Below are positions 3,683-26,581 of a DNA stretch of 38,936 nt, in pieces. The notes below the pieces were generated by a model, which searched no databases, was not told the origin of the DNA, and saw nothing but the letters and a program-made list of their open reading frames with translations. The position numbers and the translations under genes were made by a program. The stretch comes from Candidatus Competibacteraceae bacterium (GTDB lineage: Bacteria > Pseudomonadota > Gammaproteobacteria > Competibacterales > Competibacteraceae). Position 1 is the stretch's first letter. Every line of letters begins with the position of its first letter. The stretch spans positions 1 to 38,936 of the forward strand of contig RXIX01000018.1 of assembly GCA_003989075.1 (NCBI GenBank). The letters are read 5' to 3'.

Positions 3683-5422
3683 TCAGGTCGGCAGTGGGCT
3701 GTTGAGTACCCGGTGCAGGCAACGGGCCAGATCGTACAGGGCATAGGGTTTTTGCAGGAAGCCGGCCAGACCGAGCCCGGCAAAGCGCGGCGCGATCTCG
3801 CTTTCGGTAAAGCCGCTCGACAGCACCACGCGCAACTGCGGATTGATGCGGCGCAGCGCGGTAAAGGCTTCCTCGCCATCCATGACCGGCATGGTCAGGT
3901 CAAGCAGCACCATGACGATGCGCGCGCGCCGCGCCTGATAGAGATACAGCGCCTCGCGGCCATTGGCGGCGGTCAGCACCTGAAAGCCGAGCCGTTCCAG
4001 CATGCGGCCGACCATGACGCGCACCGATTCCTCGTCATCGACCAGCAGGATGGTGCCCGTGCCGCGCCAGTCGGCATGCGCGATCTCGGCGACGGCGCCA
4101 GTTTCGGTCTGTGCGGTTTGCAGCGCCGGCAGAAAGACGCGAATCGTGGTGCCTTGGCCAAGTACGCTGCGCACCCGCAACGCGCCGTGATGGCCGCGCA
4201 CGATGCCCAGCACCGCCGACAGGCCCAGACCGCGCCCGGTAAACTTGGTGGTAAAAAAGGGTTCGAAGATGCGCCGCTGGGTATCCGCGTCCATGCCACA
4301 GCCGCTGTCGGCGATTTCCAGCCAGGCATACAGGCCGCCATTCAGGGTTTCGTTCAGGTAGGCATCGCTCAGCTCTTCATGGGTGCATTTGAGCGCACCG
4401 GTGGCAATCGTCACCACGCCGCCCTCGTCGCCGATCGCCTCGGCAGCATTGATCACCAGATTCATCACCACCTGGCGGATCTGGCTCGGATCGCCGCGCA
4501 GCGCCGGCAGATCCGCATCCAGAGCCAGGTTGAGCGTGGTTTTCTTGGCGATGGAGGCCTTGAGCAGGGCGACCATCTCGTCGATCAGTGCGTTCAGGTC
4601 CATGGTCTCGATGGCGAACCAGCCCTTGCCGGAGTAAGCGAGCATCTGTCGGCACAACTCGGCGGCGCGCAGCGAGGTGGCTTCGATGGCGTGCAGACTG
4701 TCGCGAGCCGGTGAATCGGCCGGCAGTTCCTCCATCGCCAGATTGGCATTGCCGAGGATGATAGCCAGCAGGTTGTTGAAATCGTGAGCGATCCCGCCAG
4801 CCAGCACGCCGAGGCTCTCCAGGCGCTGGGTCTGCTGCATCTGCCGCTCCAGTTGCAGGCGCTTTTCCTCGGCCCACTTGCGCTCGCTGATGTCGGTCAC
4901 CGCCAGCAGCAGCAGCGGCGTGCCATCGACCGGCCGGCTGCCGAGAGCGGTGCGGATGGTGGTGCCTTCGAGATGAGCGTAAAAGGCGGCGCCGCGCTCA
5001 CGGCGGACCATCGCTTCCAGGCTCTTGCCGGCGGGTTTGCGGAAAAAGCCCGGATAGCGGCCGAGAAACGGTTCCTGGCTGTTGCGCTCCAGACAATGGG
5101 CGAAGGAATTGCCCAGCAGGCGGCTGCGCGCGCGCTCGACCATGCGGCAGAAGGTCTCGTTGACCTCGTAGATCAGGCCGATTTCGTTGAGCACCAGATA
5201 GCCGATCGGCGCCTGATGGAACAACAGCGAGAACTGGTTGCGCGACTGCTCAAGCTCGGCGCTGACCCGGCGCAGCTCTTCCTTCTGGATTTCCAGTTCC
5301 ATGCGCTGCACGTGCAGTTCGTGCACCAGGGCGCGGCCCCGGTTGTCCACTATCTCGGGCTGCGCTCCGATCGGAGACAGGGCTTCGGTTTCGGCTTGCT
5401 CGCGCGGGATTTCGCGTGTCAT
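3683..5422 (-). CDS. PAS hybrid histidine kinase with C-terminal receiver
   Basis: The 579-residue protein has no membrane segments and should be cytoplasmic. A predicted coiled coil (about 36-65) leads into a PAS domain (about 65-180, SLLFHQAPIGYLVLNEIGLI). A second coil precedes an NtrB-like HisKA with phospho-acceptor H213 (LAGGIAHDFNNLLA), then an HATPase with N-box near 321 (NLVINAAEA) and G-boxes DSGCGMD and GRGLGLS. A C-terminal receiver (about 456-575) has VDDEE, phospho-acceptor D508 and K558. Start choice: the frame opens upstream at 5491, but ATG 5422 has an AAGGAG 10 bases upstream and begins the conserved part. The gene converges on the receiver gene 3314-3682 with no gap. The cue bound by the PAS domain cannot be told from sequence. 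Confidence 0.88.
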   Translation of the reverse strand: MTREIPREQAETEALSPIGAQPEIVDNRGRALVHELHVQRMELEIQKEELRRVSAELEQSRNQFSLLFHQAPIGYLVLNEIGLIYEVNETFCRMVERARSRLLGNSFAHCLERNSQEPFLGRYPGFFRKPAGKSLEAMVRRERGAAFYAHLEGTTIRTALGSRPVDGTPLLLLAVTDISERKWAEEKRLQLERQMQQTQRLESLGVLAGGIAHDFNNLLAIILGNANLAMEELPADSPARDSLHAIEATSLRAAELCRQMLAYSGKGWFAIETMDLNALIDEMVALLKASIAKKTTLNLALDADLPALRGDPSQIRQVVMNLVINAAEAIGDEGGVVTIATGALKCTHEELSDAYLNETLNGGLYAWLEIADSGCGMDADTQRRIFEPFFTTKFTGRGLGLSAVLGIVRGHHGALRVRSVLGQGTTIRVFLPALQTAQTETGAVAEIAHADWRGTGTILLVDDEESVRVMVGRMLERLGFQVLTAANGREALYLYQARRARIVMVLLDLTMPVMDGEEAFTALRRINPQLRVVLSSGFTESEIAPRFAGLGLAGFLQKPYALYDLARCLHRVLNSPLPT

Positions 5423-17282: not shown

Positions 17283-19706
17283 ATGGTTATGTCAGTTGCG
17301 AGCAAGATGGGGGAACACACCGCTGAGTTCTGGCGGAAAAATCTGCGTGGTAAGCCGTTTATCGAGCTGGTAGGCGCTCGTCCGGCTGCCTGGTGGACGG
17401 GATGTATGCCGGATGATTGCCCTGGTCGCCAGGCTGATGGCACGTTTACCGCGCTGCCGTTGCCCGATCTGGCGACCTGCAGTCGCGAACAGGTTCTGGA
17501 TTATTTCGACAATACTTGGACATTAACCGAAATCCTGTTCGCCGGCCTGCGCGGCGAGGAAGCTTTTTTTCGCCCGCCCTATCATCATCTGCGCCATCCG
17601 ATGATCTTCTACTACGGGCATCCGCCGGCGCTGTACATCAACAAGCTGCGCGTCGCCGGCCTGATCGAGCAGCCGCTGAATGTCGACTTTGAACGGCTGT
17701 TCGAAACCGGCGTCGATGAAATGCGCTGGGACGACATGTCCAAGAACGAGATGCTCTGGCCGGAGATTGGCGCGGTGCATGCCTACCGCCAGCAGGTCTA
17801 TCGCACCGTGCGCGGCGTGATCGAAACCCATCCCGGACTGGCCGCTGGTCATGCGCCGATCACCCAGGATCAGCCTCTGTGGGCGCTGTTCATGGGCTTT
17901 GAGCATGAGCGCATCCATCTGGAAACCTCGGCGATGCTGATCCATGAATTGCCGCTGGAGCAGGTGCAGCGGCCCACCGCCTGGCCGGCCCTGCATCCAT
18001 CGGCGGCACGTCCGGCCACGGTTTTCCCGCCGCAGCCTGGCCGGGACTTTCCCGACAACGCTGCCCTTGCCGTGCTCGCCCAGACCGTGACCCTGGGCAA
18101 GCCGGTCAATTGGCCCTCCTACGGTTGGGATAACGAATACGGTCAGCGCGAGACGACGCTGCAGCCGTTTCAGGCCAGCCGCTATCTGGTCAGCAATGGC
18201 GAATTTCACGCCTTCGTGGTCGCTGGCGGTTACCGTGAGCGCGCCTGCTGGTCGGAGACCGGCTGGGAATGGCGCGGCTTTCGCAATATCAAGTGGCCGA
18301 CCTTCTGGGTGCCGGATGGTCCGGCCGGCCTGCACCGCTTCAAGCTGCGCACCCTGTTCGAAGTCATCGATATGCCCTGGGATTGGCCGGTCGAGGTCAA
18401 CTATCACGAGGCCCGGGCCTATTGCGCCTGGCGCAGCGCTCAGGAAGGGGTGCCCTATCGCCTGCCCAGCGAAGCCGAGCATCAGGCGCTGCGCGGCGAT
18501 CAGCAGCGCCGGGCGCGCAGCCTGGGCGTTGTCGCCGATCCGGTGATGCAATGCGATGGCGTTACCCTGGGGCATGAGTACGGCTGGAATCTGAATCTGG
18601 CGCACGGGTCCTCCTGTCCGGTGCATGCCGGTGCACCTGCCGGGGCCGGTTTCCACGACGTGTTTGGTAACGTCTGGCAATGGCTGGAGGATCATTTCAA
18701 TCCGCTGCCCGGCGCCCGGGTCCATCCCTATTACGACGATTTCAGCTCACCCTGCTATGACGGTCAGCACCAGATGATGCTCGGCGGCTCCTGGGTCTCG
18801 ACCGGTGACGAGGCCAGCATCTGGGCGCGTTTCCACTTCCGCCCGCATTTTTACCAGCACGCCGGGTTCCGCTGGGTGCAAAGCGCGGGTGATGGCGGCG
18901 CGGTGCGGCTTGATCAGGCCGGCGCGGCGGGTCAGGTTTACGAGGATCCGCAGGTGCTTAATGAATATCTGCTGCTGCACTACGGTGCGCCCGCCGAGCA
19001 GATGCCCTATGCCTTTGGGCCACGCGCCGCAGTCGAATTTCCGCTGCGCTGCGCGCGCTGGCTGCTTGATGCCGCCCGCGAATACGATGCACCGACCGGC
19101 CGCGCCCTGGACATCGGCTGTGCGGTGGGCCGCTCCAGTTTTGAACTGGCGCGCGGCTATGGCGAGGTGCTGGGCGTTGATCTCAGTCGTGCCTTCATTG
19201 ACGCCGCCAACGTGCTGCGCCGCGAAGGCGAACTGCGCTATTTCCGCAAGGACGAGGGCCAACTGGGTGCGACCGTGAATGCGATGATCGACCCGGCCAT
19301 CGACCGGACACGGGTCGCCTTCCGTCAGGCCGATGCCTGTTCGCTGCCGGCGGAACTGGTTGATTTCGATGCGGTGCTGCTGGCCAATCTGCTGTGCCGT
19401 CTGCCCAGCCCGAAAGCGCTGCTCGGCCGGCTTGGCGGTCCACGCGGTCTGGTACGGCCCGGCGGTTTGCTGGCGCTGTTCTCGCCGTACAGCTGGCTGG
19501 AACAGTTCACTCCGCCGGATGCCTGGCTGGGTGGCTGTCTGCGCGATGGGCAGCCGGTCAGCAGCGCGGCAGCACTCAAGGCGCTACTGGTCGCCGAGGG
19601 CTTTGAACTGCTGCGCGAGGATGAGGAACCGCTGCTGATCCGCGAGCACGCCCGCAAGTATCAGTACATCGTCAGCCACGCCCTGTTGTGGCGGCGCATC
19701 CGCTAA
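17283..19706 (+). CDS. ovoA: OvoA: 5-histidylcysteine sulfoxide synthase/4-mercaptohistidine N1-methyltransferase
   Basis: The 807-residue protein has the three-part OvoA build. An N-terminal DinB-like domain carries the iron-binding His set: H113 in YYGHP, and H208 and H212 in HERIHLE. An FGE-sulfatase/EgtB-like domain (about 270-535) includes WPVEVNYHEARAYCAWR, FHDVFGNVWQWLEDHF and GGSWVSTGDEASIWARFHFRPHF. A C-terminal SAM methyltransferase has ALDIGCAVGRSSFEL (608-622) and VLGVDLS. It joins cysteine to histidine with oxygen and later methylates the mercaptohistidine, making the redox thiol ovothiol A. A C-S lyase (OvoB) is needed for the middle step and is not in the window. The frame starts at ATG 17283, but ATG 17289 has the better spacing from GAGGGA. 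Confidence 0.93.
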   Translation: MVMSVASKMGEHTAEFWRKNLRGKPFIELVGARPAAWWTGCMPDDCPGRQADGTFTALPLPDLATCSREQVLDYFDNTWTLTEILFAGLRGEEAFFRPPYHHLRHPMIFYYGHPPALYINKLRVAGLIEQPLNVDFERLFETGVDEMRWDDMSKNEMLWPEIGAVHAYRQQVYRTVRGVIETHPGLAAGHAPITQDQPLWALFMGFEHERIHLETSAMLIHELPLEQVQRPTAWPALHPSAARPATVFPPQPGRDFPDNAALAVLAQTVTLGKPVNWPSYGWDNEYGQRETTLQPFQASRYLVSNGEFHAFVVAGGYRERACWSETGWEWRGFRNIKWPTFWVPDGPAGLHRFKLRTLFEVIDMPWDWPVEVNYHEARAYCAWRSAQEGVPYRLPSEAEHQALRGDQQRRARSLGVVADPVMQCDGVTLGHEYGWNLNLAHGSSCPVHAGAPAGAGFHDVFGNVWQWLEDHFNPLPGARVHPYYDDFSSPCYDGQHQMMLGGSWVSTGDEASIWARFHFRPHFYQHAGFRWVQSAGDGGAVRLDQAGAAGQVYEDPQVLNEYLLLHYGAPAEQMPYAFGPRAAVEFPLRCARWLLDAAREYDAPTGRALDIGCAVGRSSFELARGYGEVLGVDLSRAFIDAANVLRREGELRYFRKDEGQLGATVNAMIDPAIDRTRVAFRQADACSLPAELVDFDAVLLANLLCRLPSPKALLGRLGGPRGLVRPGGLLALFSPYSWLEQFTPPDAWLGGCLRDGQPVSSAAALKALLVAEGFELLREDEEPLLIREHARKYQYIVSHALLWRRIR

Positions 19707-19755: not shown

Positions 19756-21219
19756 TCACGCTTTCTCGATCAGCGGCAACGCCAGCCGGATGGCAACCCG
19801 CAGGCCGCCATCCGGGCGATTGCACGCCTGGATGGTGCCGCCGTGGGCGAGAATGGCCCGCCGGGCAATGGCCAGCCCGAGACCGAAACCGCGCGTCGCC
19901 GGGCTGGTTTCGCTGCGATAGAACGGCTCGAACACCGCTTCCAGCTCATGTTCCGGGATGCCGGGACCGCGATCATCGACCGTGATGCCCAGCCATCCCG
20001 CAGCGGGCAGTGGTTCGACCGTCACCTCGACTGTGGTGCCTGGTGCGGTGTACTTGACCGCATTGCGCACTACGTTTTCGATCGCCCGATACAACAACTC
20101 GGCGCGCGCCTTGACCACTGCCTCACCCGCGCCGCAAAAGCACAGCGCCCGCCCGCTGGCTTCGGCCTCGAAGCGGGCATCCTCGGCGATGCCTTCCACC
20201 AGTTCCACCAGGTCGACATACTGATCGAGCGGACCGCTGACACCCGCTTCCAGCCGCGACAGCGTCAGCAGTTCACCCACCAGGGTATCCAGGCGGCCGG
20301 CCTCACGCTCGATGCGCTCCAGCGATGCTTCACGCTGTTCCGGCTGCTGGCGAGCCAGGCCAATGGCCGCATGCAGGCGCGCCAGTGGCGAGCGCAGTTC
20401 GTGCGAGACGATATGCAGCAGGCGGCGCTGCGAACCGATCAGGCTCTGCAGATGCTCGGCCATGTGATCGAAATCGCGGCCGAGATCGGCGATCTCATCA
20501 CGGCGGCCCCGCATGCGCAGTCCCACCCGGGTGTCGAACTGGCCAGCGGCCAGGGCCGCGAACGCTTCACGCAGATGGCGCAGGGGCCGGGACAGATACC
20601 AGGCCAGCAGAGCGCTGCAGATCAGGCTGGCCAGCAGACCCATGCCAATCGGTAACAGCGGCGATGCCGGATAAGCCAGCCGGTTGTCGAGCGTGCTGCC
20701 CCGGGCCGGGACGAAAAACAGATACTGCCGACCGCCGACCGTCATCTCACGGGCACTCCCCGGCAGTGTGTGCTCATCCACGCGCCGGCGGGCCAGAGCC
20801 AGCGTTCCAGTCGGCACCGCACGCCCGAGCAATTCCTGCCCGGCGTCATCGACCACGAACACATGGGCGCCGCTGCGCTGCTGCCAGGCATTCAGCAATT
20901 CACGCAGCGCGCCCAGGCCACCGTGGCGCAGGGTGGCCACGGTCGAATCCAGCATGAACAGAATCCGCGGGCCATCGGCCAGGTCCTGCTGGTATTCGAC
21001 CACGGCCTGCTGGCGCAGCCACACCGCCGTACCCACGCCAACCCCCACCAATAACAAGGTCAGCCAGAAGGCGAGCAGAAATTTCCAGAACAGCCGCCCC
21101 CCGTTCAGCGCCTTCAGGATGGGCCGGGCCAGCGTCGCCAGTCGGCGCAGGGCAGATCGTATCGGCCATTGCCAGCGTGCCGCCCGAGCGTGTGCTGTGC
21201 CGGCCAGTGGCTCATTCAT
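19756..21219 (-). CDS. cpxA: CpxA-like envelope-stress sensor kinase
   Basis: The 487-residue protein has TM1 (about 44-66), a periplasmic loop (67-187), TM2 (about 188-208), HAMP (209-260), HisKA with H273 (HIVSHELRSPLARL, a CpxA/RstB-type box) and an HATPase (ENVVRNAVKYT, DDRGPGI, GFGLGLAIARR). Phospho-transfer should go to the CpxR-like regulator encoded just before it. The chosen start, ATG 21219, overlaps the cpxR stop by 8 bases (ATGAATGA); the open frame extends to 21276 inside cpxR and is rejected. About 40 residues precede TM1, more than in E. coli CpxA, and are rich in Arg. The 3' end lies 49 bases from the convergent ovoA end. Confidence 0.85.
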   Translation of the reverse strand: MNEPLAGTAHARAARWQWPIRSALRRLATLARPILKALNGGRLFWKFLLAFWLTLLLVGVGVGTAVWLRQQAVVEYQQDLADGPRILFMLDSTVATLRHGGLGALRELLNAWQQRSGAHVFVVDDAGQELLGRAVPTGTLALARRRVDEHTLPGSAREMTVGGRQYLFFVPARGSTLDNRLAYPASPLLPIGMGLLASLICSALLAWYLSRPLRHLREAFAALAAGQFDTRVGLRMRGRRDEIADLGRDFDHMAEHLQSLIGSQRRLLHIVSHELRSPLARLHAAIGLARQQPEQREASLERIEREAGRLDTLVGELLTLSRLEAGVSGPLDQYVDLVELVEGIAEDARFEAEASGRALCFCGAGEAVVKARAELLYRAIENVVRNAVKYTAPGTTVEVTVEPLPAAGWLGITVDDRGPGIPEHELEAVFEPFYRSETSPATRGFGLGLAIARRAILAHGGTIQACNRPDGGLRVAIRLALPLIEKA

Positions 21220-21913
21220 GGCGCACATCCAGAACGAACTGATAGCCAATGCCGCGCACCGTCTGAATCCAGGCACGGTCAGCGCTGTGCATGTCCAGTT
21301 TCTGGCGGATGCTGCTCATGTGCACGTCGATACTGCGATCAAAGCGCGCCAATGGCCGGCCCAGGCCCTGTTCGGACAGTTCCGCCTTGCTGACCACCCG
21401 TCCGGCATGGCGCAGCAGGGTTTGCAGCAGGTTGAACTCGGTGCTGGTCAGTTCCAGTGCTCGCCCAGCCCATTCAGCGCGGCGCTGTGCCGGCCACAGC
21501 GTCAGCGGGCCAACCACGAGCGGCTCGGTCAACACGGGTGCTGCCAGCGCAGCACTGCCGCGCCGCAGGATCGCACGCAGGCGTGCGACCAGTTCGCGCG
21601 GTGTGCAGGGCTTGGGTACATAGTCATCGGCGCCCAGTTCCAGGCCGACGATACGATCGATGTCCTCACCCTTGGCGGTGAGCATCAGCACCGGGATGCG
21701 GCTGTGCATGCGGATGCGGCGCAGCGCTTCGATGCCGTTAAGGTACGGCATCATCACATCGAGCACCACGATCGCATAGCGCCCGGACAGGGCCTCGGTA
21801 ACGCCGCTTTCGCCATCGCCGACCGTCGTCGCGGCGAAGCCTTCCCGTTCCAGATACTCCTTGAGCATGCCGCTCAGCTCAATATCGTCGTCAACCAGCA
21901 GCACGGTGGTCAT
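21212..21913 (-). CDS. cpxR: CpxR-like OmpR-family response regulator
   Basis: The 233-residue protein has a receiver with DDD near 8-10, phospho-acceptor in VVLDVMMPYLNGIEALRRIR (about D52) and K102 or close in GADDYVPKP, followed by a winged-helix DNA-binding domain (ELTSTEFNLLQTLLRHAGRVVSKAELSE, SIDVHMSSIRQKL, IQTVRGIGYQF). The wording of the receiver (LDVMMP.LNGIEALR, LELGADDYVPKPCTPRELVARLRAILRR) is closest to CpxR, which controls envelope protein folding and stress genes. Support from DNA: three GTAAA boxes lie immediately upstream, the CpxR consensus, consistent with autoregulation. The start ATG 21913 has a GGAGT about 13 bases upstream. The gene is first in a cpxRA operon. Confidence 0.88.
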   Translation of the reverse strand: MTTVLLVDDDIELSGMLKEYLEREGFAATTVGDGESGVTEALSGRYAIVVLDVMMPYLNGIEALRRIRMHSRIPVLMLTAKGEDIDRIVGLELGADDYVPKPCTPRELVARLRAILRRGSAALAAPVLTEPLVVGPLTLWPAQRRAEWAGRALELTSTEFNLLQTLLRHAGRVVSKAELSEQGLGRPLARFDRSIDVHMSSIRQKLDMHSADRAWIQTVRGIGYQFVLDVRHE

Positions 21914-21949: not shown

Positions 21950-21977
21950 ATGATAGCAATGCCCGGAAACCGGCCAA
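21950..21977 (-). promoter_or_regulatory. Likely cpxRA promoter
   Basis: On the minus strand, TTGGCC (21977-21972) and TATCAT (21955-21950) are spaced by 16 bases; TATCAT matches the -10 consensus in five of six positions. The GTAAA boxes end 5 bases upstream of the -35, a position suited to activation by a bound response regulator. Confidence 0.5.
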
Positions 21978-21982
21978 GCGCC

Positions 21983-22007
21983 TTTACCGGCTTTTACCGA
22001 GTTTTAC
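21983..22007 (-). promoter_or_regulatory. Triple CpxR-type box, GTAAA-N5-GTAAA-N5-GTAAA
   Basis: On the plus strand TTTAC occurs at 21983-21987, 21993-21997 and 22003-22007, exactly 10 bases apart. Read on the minus strand this is GTAAA three times with 5-base gaps, which fits the known CpxR site GTAAAN5GTAAA and adds one more half-site. It lies 70 bases upstream of cpxR and 108 bases upstream of the divergent reductase gene, so it may serve both. Confidence 0.8.
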
Positions 22008-22114
22008 ATCCGGATAACCGCGTTTAACCCGCTCAGGGAACAGGATGATGGACCTTAAAGAGCGGGGACTGCGATTCCCCGCGCTGCGTTGCATATCTCG
22101 GGAGGAAAAGTCCG

Positions 22115-24316
22115 ATGTTGATGGGCATGCTACAGAAACGGGGATTGACGATGGTTCACCGCTGGCTGGCCCTGCTGCTGGCGCCGGTTCTGCTGCTGAT
22201 CCTGCTATCCGGAGCGGTGCTGGCTTTGAAGCCGATCCTGCAGCCGGAGGCGGTGGCGGTAGCGCCGCAAACCGTAGTCAGCGCGCTGCGGGCCATTGAT
22301 CCCCAGGGCAGCGCCAACCGGCTGACGGTAGCGGCGGATGGGCGCAGCCTTGAAGTGCGCGCGCCCGCTGCGGGCGTCAGTGGCCGCTTTGATTTGGACA
22401 GCCATGCGCCGCTGAACGCCGAGCCGTCCTTCGATCCGTTTGTCTTTGCCCTTGATCTGCATAAAAACCTGCTGGTGGGCGCCGGTTTCGTAGTCGAGAT
22501 TGCCACCTATGCCATGGTAGCCCTGCTGGTCATCGGCCTGCTGCTGGGCTGGCCGCGGCTGCGTAATACCCTGCTCGGCTGGCATGGTGGCCTGGGCTGG
22601 CTGGCGCTGCCGCTGCTGGCGTTGCCGCCGGTGACCGGATTGCTGATGGCGCTGCATATCGGTGGACCGGCGCTGCCACCACCCAACCCGGTACTGCCGG
22701 CGCCTTCTCTGGCCCGGGCCATTGAAATCGCCGCGACGCAGGGTGAGCTGAATGCGGTGGACAAGGCGCGCGTGCTGCGTGGCCAGGTGGTGCTGCTGCA
22801 GGGACGTGGGGCGCAGGGTCCGGTGCAGTATCTGATCCACGGCGATAACCCGCCCGAGCTGCTGCCCGCCGGCCGCAACTGGGTCAAGGAACTGCACGAG
22901 GGTACCTGGGGCGGTGCCGGTTCAGGGGCGCTGGCCCTGCTGGCGGCGCTGGGCCTGCTGACGCTGAGCGGCACCGGTTTATATTCCTGGCTGCGCCGGG
23001 TGCGGCTGGCCGGGCAGCGCTCGGGTGATCACAACGCTTCGATTCTGGTGGCCTTCGCCAGCCAGACCGGTACGGCTGCGCGGCTGGCCGAGGCGACCGC
23101 GCAGGCCTTGCGCAGTGCCGGTGAAGCGGTGAGCTGTGCTTCGCTGGCGGCGCTGGATCCGCGTGAGCTGGCCGGTTTTCGCCACAACCTGCTGATCGTC
23201 TCAACGACTGGCGATGGCGATGTGCCCGATACGGCCCGTCCTTTTCTGGCGCGTCTGGGCGATGCGGATCTGAGCGGGATGGGCTTTAGCCTGCTGGCGC
23301 TGGGTGATGCGCACTATCCGACGTTCTGCGGCGGCGGCCGGCAGGTGCGCGAGGCGCTGCTGAAATACGGTGCCCGCGAAGTGAGCGCATGGCAGCGTGC
23401 CGACGGTGAGCCTGGCGCTGTCTGGCGACAGTGGCTGGAAGAGAATGCGCGCACCTTGGGGCAGCGCCTGGGTGCGGTAGAGACACCGGATATTGACCAG
23501 TCGCTGACCGTGACCCTGGTGGAGCGCGAGCGGCTCGACGATCCGGCGCGGGGCGATACCCGCGAAACCTGGCGGCTGGCCTTTGAGGTGGTCGGCGCGC
23601 ACCCGGAGTTCCGGCCCGGTGATCTGCTGCTGTTCAACCCGGCGGAGAGCGAAGCTGCGCGCTGCTATTCGATCGGTAGTTCCGCGCGCAGCGATAAGCC
23701 GCGTATCGAACTGACGGTGGGGTTGCATAGCTGGGAGGATGCCGCCGGCAACCATCGCTTCGGGCTGGCCTCGGGCTATCTGTGCCGCCTGCTGCAGCCG
23801 GGCACGTCGATCGCGGCGAAGCTGCGCCATCATCCGGGCTTCAATCCGCCGGATGACCTGAGCCGGCCGCTGGTTCTGGTGGCCACGGGTGCCGGTGTCG
23901 CCCCGTTCCCCGGTTTCATCGCTGAGCGCGTTGGCCGGCCGGATGCCGGCCCGGTCTGGATGCTGTTTGGCAACCGTTATCGGAATGGTGACTTTTTCTA
24001 TCGGGCGTGTTTTGAGGAATGGCAGCGTGCCGGCGTGCTGGCCCGGCTGGATACCGCGTTTTCCCGCGATGCCGACGACGGTTGCCACATTCAGGCGCGG
24101 ATCGTCGAAAACGGCGCCGAACTTCTGCACTGGCTGGTGGAGCGGCAGGGTGTGCTCTACACCTGCGGGCGGGCCAGCACGATCGGCAATGCCGTCGAAG
24201 AGGCGCTGCTCACGGTGATTCGTCAGCACGGTGCCCGTCATGGCCTGCTGCAGGCCGAGGCGACCTTGGCTGACTGGCGGGCCAGGGGTACCCTGCGCGT
24301 CGATGTGTTCGGCTAG
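22115..24316 (+). CDS. PepSY membrane domain-flavodoxin-ferredoxin reductase fusion
   Basis: The 733-residue protein has four hydrophobic segments (about 17-38, 124-145, 158-180, 268-290) of the PepSY_TM type. H15, H116, H157 and H261 sit near segment ends and could ligate heme, as in siderophore reductases such as FoxB. A flavodoxin domain follows (309-450; ASQTGTA, STTGDGDVPD, LALGDAHYPTFC). Then comes a cytochrome P450 reductase-like FAD/NADP module (about 470-733; RCYSIGSS, LVATGAGVAPFPGFI, LYTCGRAS). Electrons would pass NADPH-FAD-FMN-heme across the membrane, probably to a ferric or other periplasmic acceptor. ATG 22115 has GGAGG 9 bases upstream. It is divergent from cpxRA and its stop overlaps that of qseC (CTAG, 24313-24316). 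The acceptor is unproven. Confidence 0.85.
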   Translation: MLMGMLQKRGLTMVHRWLALLLAPVLLLILLSGAVLALKPILQPEAVAVAPQTVVSALRAIDPQGSANRLTVAADGRSLEVRAPAAGVSGRFDLDSHAPLNAEPSFDPFVFALDLHKNLLVGAGFVVEIATYAMVALLVIGLLLGWPRLRNTLLGWHGGLGWLALPLLALPPVTGLLMALHIGGPALPPPNPVLPAPSLARAIEIAATQGELNAVDKARVLRGQVVLLQGRGAQGPVQYLIHGDNPPELLPAGRNWVKELHEGTWGGAGSGALALLAALGLLTLSGTGLYSWLRRVRLAGQRSGDHNASILVAFASQTGTAARLAEATAQALRSAGEAVSCASLAALDPRELAGFRHNLLIVSTTGDGDVPDTARPFLARLGDADLSGMGFSLLALGDAHYPTFCGGGRQVREALLKYGAREVSAWQRADGEPGAVWRQWLEENARTLGQRLGAVETPDIDQSLTVTLVERERLDDPARGDTRETWRLAFEVVGAHPEFRPGDLLLFNPAESEAARCYSIGSSARSDKPRIELTVGLHSWEDAAGNHRFGLASGYLCRLLQPGTSIAAKLRHHPGFNPPDDLSRPLVLVATGAGVAPFPGFIAERVGRPDAGPVWMLFGNRYRNGDFFYRACFEEWQRAGVLARLDTAFSRDADDGCHIQARIVENGAELLHWLVERQGVLYTCGRASTIGNAVEEALLTVIRQHGARHGLLQAEATLADWRARGTLRVDVFG

Positions 24317-25626
24317 GCGTCGGTCTGAGCCGCTTGAGCAAAGCGCACCGTGATCCGCAGACCCGGCGCGGCATCGTCAAGCGTGATGCGGGCCTGGTGA
24401 CGGTCGGCGATGTGTTGCACGATCGCCAGTCCCAGGCCGCTGCCGGGGACGCTGGTGCCGGCCGCGCCGCGATAAAAGCGGTCGAACACCCGCGCGCGCT
24501 CTGCCGGAGCAATGCCCGGCCCGGTATCGCGGACGCTGAGCACGGCGGCAGCGCCCTCGCAATCAACGCCTACGTCGATCTGACCACCGGCCGGGGTGTA
24601 GCGCAGGGCATTGTCGACCAGATTGCTCAGCAGGGTTCGCAGTTCAGCCGGGTTGCCGGCGACGCTGACGGTCGCGCCCGGCAGCAATCCCAGATCAAGA
24701 TCACGCGCCGCAGCAATGGCGGCCTGCTCGGCGACCACGCCCCGCGCCAGCGCGCGCAGTTCCACCGTTTCCAGCACCGCCGGCGGTGGCGTAGCATCAA
24801 GCCGCGCCATGGCCAGCAGTTGCTCGACCAGGTGGCGGATGCGTTCCAGCCCGGCGCGCAGAGCCTCCAGTGCCGCCGCACGGTCGGCATCAGTGCCCCG
24901 CCGCGCCAGTTCGGCCTGCAGATAAAGTGCGGTCAGCGGCGTGCGCAGTTCGTGGGCGGCATCGGCGATAAACTGGCGCTGGCTGTCCAGGGTCTGGGCC
25001 AGCCGCGCCAGCAGTGCATCCAGGGCCTGAACGAGCGGTACGATTTCCAGCGGTGCGCGCTGTCCCGAAGCCAGCGGTTCCAGGGTATCGGGGCGACGCT
25101 GGCGCAGATCCTCGGCGATGCGGCGTAGTGGCCGCAATCCAGCGCCGACCCCGAACCAGACCACCAGACCCATCCCCGGCAGCAGCAGCAGGAACGGCGC
25201 CAGATTGCGCAGGGCGATATCGGCACTCATGCGCCGGCGCACCTGCACCGGCTGCGCCACCTGAATGATGCGTTCACCGGCGTACAGGGCGAACAGCCGC
25301 CAGGATTGCTTGCGCCAGTCCAGATCAGTAAAGCCGGGCTGCGCCGCGAAGGGCAGTTCTGCGGACCTGCGCGACACATAGAGCAGGCCGCGGCCACGAT
25401 CCCAGACCTGTAGCAACAGATCGCTATCCCCGTCGTCCTCGCCGAACATCAGGCTCAGCCAGTTCTGGTTGCGCAAGGCCAGCGCTGTCTGCTGCAACTG
25501 GTAGTCGAACAGGGCGTTGACTTCGGTGCGGGCCTGACGATAGGCGACATGGCCGGAAGCCGCCAGCACCAGACCCAGTCCGGCCAGCAGCCCGAACAGC
25601 AGGCGCTGGCGGATCGAATGCATCAT
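24313..25626 (-). CDS. qseC: QseC/PmrB-like sensor histidine kinase
   Basis: The 437-residue protein has TM1 (about 8-25), a periplasmic loop (about 30-138), TM2 (about 140-163), a HAMP-like linker with LRPLRRIAEDLRQR, HisKA with H225 (FIADAAHELRTPLTAL) and an HATPase (LLSNLVDNALRYTP, VRDTGPGI, GSGLGLAIVQH). The QRQFIADAAHELRTPLTALYLQAELA block is typical of QseC. In enterics QseC answers to catecholamines/AI-3, and PmrB-like relatives to iron or pH; the cue here is unknown. The start is ATG 25626, which shares one base with the qseB stop (TGATG); GTG 25629 and ATG 25623 are alternatives. The gene converges on the PepSY reductase with overlapping stops. Confidence 0.85.
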   Translation of the reverse strand: MMHSIRQRLLFGLLAGLGLVLAASGHVAYRQARTEVNALFDYQLQQTALALRNQNWLSLMFGEDDGDSDLLLQVWDRGRGLLYVSRRSAELPFAAQPGFTDLDWRKQSWRLFALYAGERIIQVAQPVQVRRRMSADIALRNLAPFLLLLPGMGLVVWFGVGAGLRPLRRIAEDLRQRRPDTLEPLASGQRAPLEIVPLVQALDALLARLAQTLDSQRQFIADAAHELRTPLTALYLQAELARRGTDADRAAALEALRAGLERIRHLVEQLLAMARLDATPPPAVLETVELRALARGVVAEQAAIAAARDLDLGLLPGATVSVAGNPAELRTLLSNLVDNALRYTPAGGQIDVGVDCEGAAAVLSVRDTGPGIAPAERARVFDRFYRGAAGTSVPGSGLGLAIVQHIADRHQARITLDDAAPGLRITVRFAQAAQTDA

Positions 25627-26288
25627 CACGGAGGATCGCCCAGCCGGTAGCCGACGCCGCGCACGGTGCGGATCAGACCGGGGGCGAGCTTGCGGCGCAG
25701 GTTGTGGACATGGACTTCGATGGCGTTGCTCTCGACTTCCTGGCCCCAGCCGTACAGACGATCTTCCAGTTGCTCACGCGACAGCACCGCGCCAGGGTGT
25801 TCGAGCAGGGCCTGCAGCAGGCTGAACTCGCGCGCCGATAGCACTACCGGCTGACCATGACAGGTCAGTGTATGGCGGGCCGGGTCCAGTTGCAGCGCTC
25901 CGTAGTCGAGTACGGTTTGCGCACGTCCGGCGTGCCGGCGCAGCAGTGCACGCATGCGCGCCAGCAGTTCGTCGAGATCGAAGGGTTTGATCAGATAATC
26001 ATCGGCGCCGCTATCGAGACCGCGCACTCGGTCGGAGATGGCGTCGCGGGCGGTGAGAATCAATACCGGCAGGGTGATGCCCTGCCGTCGCCAGTCGCTG
26101 AGCACGGCCAGCCCGTCCTTCTTCGGCAGTCCCAGGTCGAGTAGCACCAGCGCATAGGGATGGGTGTCCAGAGCCTGTTCGGCAGCACGCCCATCCTGGA
26201 CCCAGTCAACCGCGAAACCCTCGGCGCGCAGCCCCTGACGCAGGCTGTCGCCGATCATCGGGTCATCTTCGACCAGCAGCACACGCAT
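25626..26288 (-). CDS. qseB: QseB/PmrA-like OmpR-family response regulator
   Basis: The 220-residue protein has a receiver (VEDDPMIGDSLRQGL; phospho-acceptor in LVLLDLGLPKKDG, about D51; K in LIKPFDLDELLARM) and a winged helix (LSAREFSLLQALLEHPGAVLSREQLED, SNAIEVHVHNLRRKL, IRTVRGVGYRLG). The spacing and the 'SNAIEVHVHNLRRKL' helix are typical of QseB/TctD relatives. The frame opens upstream to 26435, but conserved sequence starts at ATG 26288 (MRVLLVEDDP), so that start is used. It forms an operon with qseC (1-base overlap). The two small minus-strand genes upstream could contribute read-through transcription. Confidence 0.88.
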   Translation of the reverse strand: MRVLLVEDDPMIGDSLRQGLRAEGFAVDWVQDGRAAEQALDTHPYALVLLDLGLPKKDGLAVLSDWRRQGITLPVLILTARDAISDRVRGLDSGADDYLIKPFDLDELLARMRALLRRHAGRAQTVLDYGALQLDPARHTLTCHGQPVVLSAREFSLLQALLEHPGAVLSREQLEDRLYGWGQEVESNAIEVHVHNLRRKLAPGLIRTVRGVGYRLGDPP

Positions 26289-26392
26289 CAGGATCGCTGC
26301 ATCCGATCCTGATGGCGTGCCACGGCGGACCGTGCTGCTGTCAGGATTTTGACCAATCGGGAATCGCAATCGCCAGGCAGGGCGATCACGGC

Positions 26393-26581
26393 TTAATGGG
26401 TCGGGTTGCGCAACCGGCGAACAGTGGCGAGCCACTCATGCGCCAGTCGCTGCCGTTCCCGTTGTGGGCGGTTTTGCGCGGTGGCAGCGAAATAGGCATA
26501 CATGGCATCCATGGCAGCCCGGGTCTTTTCCTGATCCTGGGCGCCGCTGGGCGAGGGGGGAAGGGTCATGGAGAGCATCAT
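26393..26581 (-). CDS. Small hypothetical protein (62 residues)
   Basis: The start ATG 26581 is preceded by TGAGGTG at a good distance, which sets the start inside a longer open frame. The product MMLSMTLPPSPSGAQ... ends in a basic helix (RPQRERQRLAHEWLATVRRLRNPTH). I recognise no family. It starts 28 bases after the ribbon-helix-helix gene on the same strand, so the two may be co-transcribed. The good ribosome site and the position support a real gene; the lack of a known family keeps confidence low. Confidence 0.45.
   Translation of the reverse strand: MMLSMTLPPSPSGAQDQEKTRAAMDAMYAYFAATAQNRPQRERQRLAHEWLATVRRLRNPTH

Follow-up and report, generated by a model that had tools for sequence, protein, structure and literature searches.

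Autoactivation of CpxR in Escherichia coli was reportedly described by De Wulf in 1999 (cited in PMC3127752). The published CpxR motif is the direct repeat GTAAA-N5-GTAAA (PMC5063474, PMC12802237). For the cpxP promoter of E. coli, one article reports three CpxR-P sites (PMC9753035, citing Yamamoto and Ishihama 2006). The P. aeruginosa sites at muxA, yceJ, and PA3965 contain three GTAAA-like boxes, tabled as a pair of overlapping sites offset by 11 bp (PMC12802237, Table 1). For AgrR of Cupriavidus metallidurans, class II activation with positive autoregulation was proposed (PMC7380067), and the Shewanella CpxR-like regulator SO2426 has its tandem pentamer motif in front of its own gene as well (PMC3127752).

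The window analyzed here is a stretch of 38,936 nucleotides from a Candidatus Competibacteraceae bacterium (features in Table 1). It reads TTTACCGGCTTTTACCGAGTTTTAC at 21983–22007, within CCTTTACCGGCTTTTACCGAGTTTTACATCC, and the TTTAC words announced at 21983, 21993, and 22003 by the original prediction are there. On the minus strand, the reading is GTAAA-ACTCG-GTAAA-AGCCG-GTAAA, a direct repeat of the CpxR-box form GTAAA-N(4–8)-GTAAA, located 70 bp ahead of the gene for a CpxR-type regulator. The exact triple occurs once in the 3.4-Mb genome, where about 2–3 × 10−4 copies are expected from base composition; in shuffles of the window, 0.03 matches were obtained with up to three mismatches allowed. 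Only three exact GTAAA-N5-GTAAA pairs exist genome-wide, two of which make up the triple. As the pentamer is short and lone GTAAA words are common, an A/T-rich direct repeat without regulatory role could be imagined to arise by coincidence. Given this expected number, together with the conservation and the fixed distance to the −10 element presented below, such a coincidence has practically no likelihood and is effectively refuted by the comparative data.

Table 1. Features of the cpxRA locus and its divergent neighbor in the window.
Feature	Position	Strand	Remarks
cpxA, sensor histidine kinase	19756..21219	-	two CpxA families are the best NCBIfam models; HAMP, HisKA, HATPase_c; start overlaps the end of cpxR
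cpxR, OmpR-family response regulator	21212..21913	-	best NCBIfam model CpxR, 221.9 bits
Putative −10 element TATCAT, preceded by TGC (extended −10)	21950..21955	-	27 bp past the last box
Putative −35 element TTGGCC of cpxRA	21972..21977	-	5 bp past the last box; TTGGTT/TTGGCT in relatives, 1.81 bits
Three predicted in-phase proximal CpxR boxes, GTAAA-N5-GTAAA-N5-GTAAA	22007-22003, 21997-21993, 21987-21983	-	direct reading; unique in the genome; aligns with the arrays of relatives 5′ of cpxR
Degenerate distal box GTTAT (GTTAG in relatives)	22014..22018	-	11 bp upstream of the first proximal box; position filled in Vibrio, Marinomonas, Methylomonas, Wohlfahrtiimonas
Distal box GTTAA (GTAAA in relatives)	22024..22028	-	21 bp upstream of the first proximal box
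Putative weak −10 element CAGGAT of the divergent reductase promoter	22041..22046	+	TACAGT at the same place in relatives; 3/6 to consensus
Divergent gene, PepSY_TM + flavodoxin + CysJ-like FAD/NAD reductase	22115..24316	+	201 bp from cpxR; same type divergent in L013, L016

The regulator is best matched by the CpxR model, with 221.9 bits versus 198 for OmpR. This score lies below the NCBIfam CpxR equivalog cut-off of 341, as do those of CpxR from Pseudomonas (227), Vibrio (310), and Methylomonas (215), whereas that from Enterobacter lies above (496). Since these other CpxR proteins also fall short, the cut-off appears to suit only close kin of the enterobacterial protein. The regulator is 48% identical to CpxR of Enterobacter, and the orthologs of the family are 70–75% identical to it. 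The scores of the kinase against the CpxA models are likewise below the equivalog cut-off. The overlap of the two genes places a CpxR with a CpxA-type kinase in one operon. Adjoining cpxRA, positions 17283–19706 encode an OvoA-type 5-histidylcysteine sulfoxide synthase with a methyltransferase domain (ovothiol biosynthesis), both halves of which exceed the NCBIfam cut-off.

Two exact boxes are found 5′ of cpxR in the named genomes of Enterobacter, Rahnella, Pantoea, Proteus, Vibrio, and Photobacterium, in Pseudoalteromonas, Marinomonas, Methylomonas, Wohlfahrtiimonas, and others, and a GTAAA-N5-GTAAA pair also precedes E. coli cpxR. Within the family, the triple pattern has 15 matches in 39 genomes, 13 of which are upstream of cpxR. 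The other two, inside an EpmA-like gene (L125) and beside an rpoD-like gene (L121), were set aside as chance occurrences. That the array follows cpxR through many genera with a fixed geometry supports the identity of the boxes as a CpxR site, the link drawn earlier between the regulator and its site, the 10-bp phasing of the boxes, their closeness to the −35 element, and the prediction of CpxR autoregulation. Head-to-tail binding on direct repeats is common to OmpR-family regulators, and the genes of a second two-component system are only 2.4 kb distant, so that another regulator, such as the QseB/PmrA-like protein encoded at 25626–26435, might bind the array and the link with CpxR be fortuitous. 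This is very improbable, as the array tracks cpxR across many genera with differing neighbors, as 13 of the 15 triples of the family are at cpxR, and as the repeat is the published CpxR motif (PMC5063474, PMC12802237). The second system itself (QseC/QseB or PmrA-like; 24313–26435) comes immediately after the reductase gene and is encoded on the other strand.

The pair TTGGCC/TATCAT is the sole promoter-like match within the intergenic stretch, and its −35 hexamer (21977–21972) adjoins the last box at five bases, where the original prediction had expected one. Measured from the last box, the sequence TAxxxT begins at exactly 27 bp in 25 of the 41 loci, among them 12 of the 26 outside the family, and E. 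coli shows this distance as well; the other best-scoring offsets occur in 0–3 loci each, and the rule does not hold in about 16 of the 41. The placement of the boxes relative to a sigma-70 promoter is thus conserved, with a distance fixed at 27 bp across many genera.

Judging from the sequences, the repeats very probably constitute the operator used by phosphorylated CpxR to activate the cpxRA operon that encodes it. CpxR-P would occupy the GTAAA boxes head to tail. On the last box, 5 bp from a poor −35 and 27 bp from an extended −10, it would touch RNA polymerase and act as a class II activator of cpxRA, generating positive feedback. The additional in-phase boxes, one unit here and two in most relatives, would lengthen the row, and a longer cooperative row probably raises occupancy or cooperativity. 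CpxR autoregulation thereby gains support from sequence alone.

The array GTAAA-N5-GTAAA-N5-GCAAA-N5-GTAAA is present at the same place in eleven genomes of the family, in some with small deviations. Close relatives have four in-phase proximal boxes plus a distal pair, and four boxes are the norm of the family. Three-box loci are those of the window and G036, and G028 (L015) has only two boxes, near the start codon. Among 369 sampled genomes of the class, the four-box pattern was found only in G004, of the same family, and in two simple tandem repeats. The latter (L140 and L141) consist of four perfect copies of the 10-bp units GTAAAACCGC and GTAAATACGG in G074 and G392, and L140 begins 131 bases from the first base of its contig. 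Information content was computed over the eleven four-box genomes. It is 1.8–2.0 bits in the box columns, with 1.9–2.0 for each of the four proximal boxes, 1.8 in the promoter hexamers, 1.3–1.4 in the spacers between proximal boxes, 1.7 in the distal spacer, and 0.6–0.9 in the outer flanks.

The array length varies between two, three, and four within a single family, and two boxes suffice in most named genera. The extra box could accordingly be neutral, having arisen when 10 bp of a functional two-box site were duplicated by chance, and leave regulation unaffected. It is rather unlikely that this is so, since all four boxes reach 1.9–2.0 bits in the four-box relatives against about 1.3–1.4 for the intervening spacers. 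The retention of the boxes while the spacers vary suggests instead that every box is under selection. A unit-by-unit comparison of the arrays did not single out the differing unit, and the CpxR tree was poorly resolved with respect to gain or loss.

The triple is part of a wider array, as the window contains two more degenerate boxes in register with it, at 22014–22018 and 22024–22028. This distal module, whose two boxes precede the first proximal box by 21 and 11 bp, is conserved beyond the family. It reads GTAAA-N5-GTnnn in Vibrio, Marinomonas, Methylomonas, and Wohlfahrtiimonas, GCAAA-N4-GTCA in Enterobacterales, GTAAA-N5-GTTAG in the family, and GTTAA-N5-GTTAT in the window. An exact GTAAA stands at −21 in most loci of the family and in 7 of the 22 outside it; the GCAAA of Enterobacterales and E. 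coli is one base off from this position. The distal pair would belong to the same operator, two helical turns away, and would overlap the divergent promoter region, so the reductase is probably also responsive to CpxR, more weakly.

The array does lie between two divergent genes, as originally described. The partner in most named genera is of the CpxP/Spy type, and the window has no divergent cpxP (LTXXQ/Spy family) at this place. In the family, the divergent gene encodes a PepSY-flavoreductase in the window, L013, and L016; a ferric reductase in L005 and L007 (Pfam) and in L010 and L012 (similar start); an outer-membrane efflux channel in L006 (Pfam) and in L008, L009, L011, and L022 (similar start); an intradiol-type dioxygenase in L018; and an EF-hand protein in L015. 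As the operator is kept while the divergent gene changes, it must predate its present divergent partners. The genome has a single LTXXQ (CpxP/Spy-type) gene, which is located on a different contig (G000:C143), at about 2.7 kb from the gene of another CpxR-like regulator, 42% identical (G000:C143:1073-1348 and 4091-4795). Such a pairing recurs in G003, G006, G012, G013, G022, G030, and G031. It looks as though, within the family, the CpxP-type gene had been relocated to a second two-component system.

On the divergent side, TAxxxT, mostly TACAGT, occupies one fixed position in 13 of 15 loci of the family, with a background of 0.35 per position, and is found in 8 of 22 loci outside the family, shifted by one base. 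In the window, CAGGAT agrees with the consensus at only three of six bases. The control of the neighboring reductase that was also predicted is thus backed by the position of the −10 element in the family and weakened by its sequence in the window, where CpxR control of this gene is plausible from a promoter that appears weak. The fixed divergent −10 and the CpxP/Spy-type partner in most named genera could also mean that the array chiefly serves the divergent gene, the effect on cpxRA being secondary. This has a low probability, since the window combines a weak divergent −10 with an intact cpxR promoter, and since the cpxR side is constant while the identity of the divergent gene shifts.

A tentative scenario, with slightly less than an even chance of being correct, is that the bidirectional cpxRA operator of the family grew by whole 10-bp units, from two to three to four, with boxes under selection and their number tuning the feedback, while cpxP was exchanged for a flavoreductase, a ferric reductase, an efflux channel, or a dioxygenase. 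If true, different envelope or redox functions were brought under one stress switch. Operators with two, three, and four in-phase boxes at one promoter form a natural series, with which to study how far two-component feedback depends, in strength or steepness, on the number of boxes.

The triple had also been proposed to define a regulon. This idea was abandoned, as the triple is unique in the genome and its near-matches with up to three mismatches are not in excess there (18 versus 37 for the reversed control). Exact pairs are not enriched over the 39 genomes of the family, with 109 observed versus 141 for the reversed control, and these counts do not support a wider regulon. The sole other exact GTAAA-N5-GTAAA pair of the genome (L003:1501-1515; G000:C145:4536-4550) precedes a Tat-signal-like DUF882/Peptidase_M15_2 gene by 27 bp; it would fit an envelope target, and one such match is expected by chance.

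Among described systems, SO2426 of Shewanella resembles the window by its CpxR-like regulator and tandem pentamers before its own gene, but the pentamers are CAAAA with a 4-bp linker and the regulator is an orphan that controls iron genes. The AgrR operators of C. metallidurans share an OmpR-family regulator and extra in-phase half-sites, but they are built around an inverted repeat of ATTACA, whereas the window has a direct repeat of GTAAA. The P. aeruginosa sites at muxA, yceJ, and PA3965 also have three GTAAA-like boxes in series, with a spacing of 11 instead of 10 bp and at target genes instead of cpxR. The E. coli cpxP-cpxRA operator shares the divergent layout, the last box of GTAAA-N5-GTAAA 27 bp from the cpxR −10, and the distal module (GCAAA/GTCA), with a divergent −10 about 11 bp past it as a further likeness. 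It differs by two in-phase proximal boxes instead of three, and by a divergent cpxP instead of a PepSY-flavoreductase. More than two boxes is no new principle, since three boxes are present in P. aeruginosa (PMC12802237) and three CpxR-P sites are reported at E. coli cpxP (PMC9753035). The array of the window is most likely an expanded form of the ancient and well-known switch by which cpxR controls itself, with one extra box here and two in relatives.
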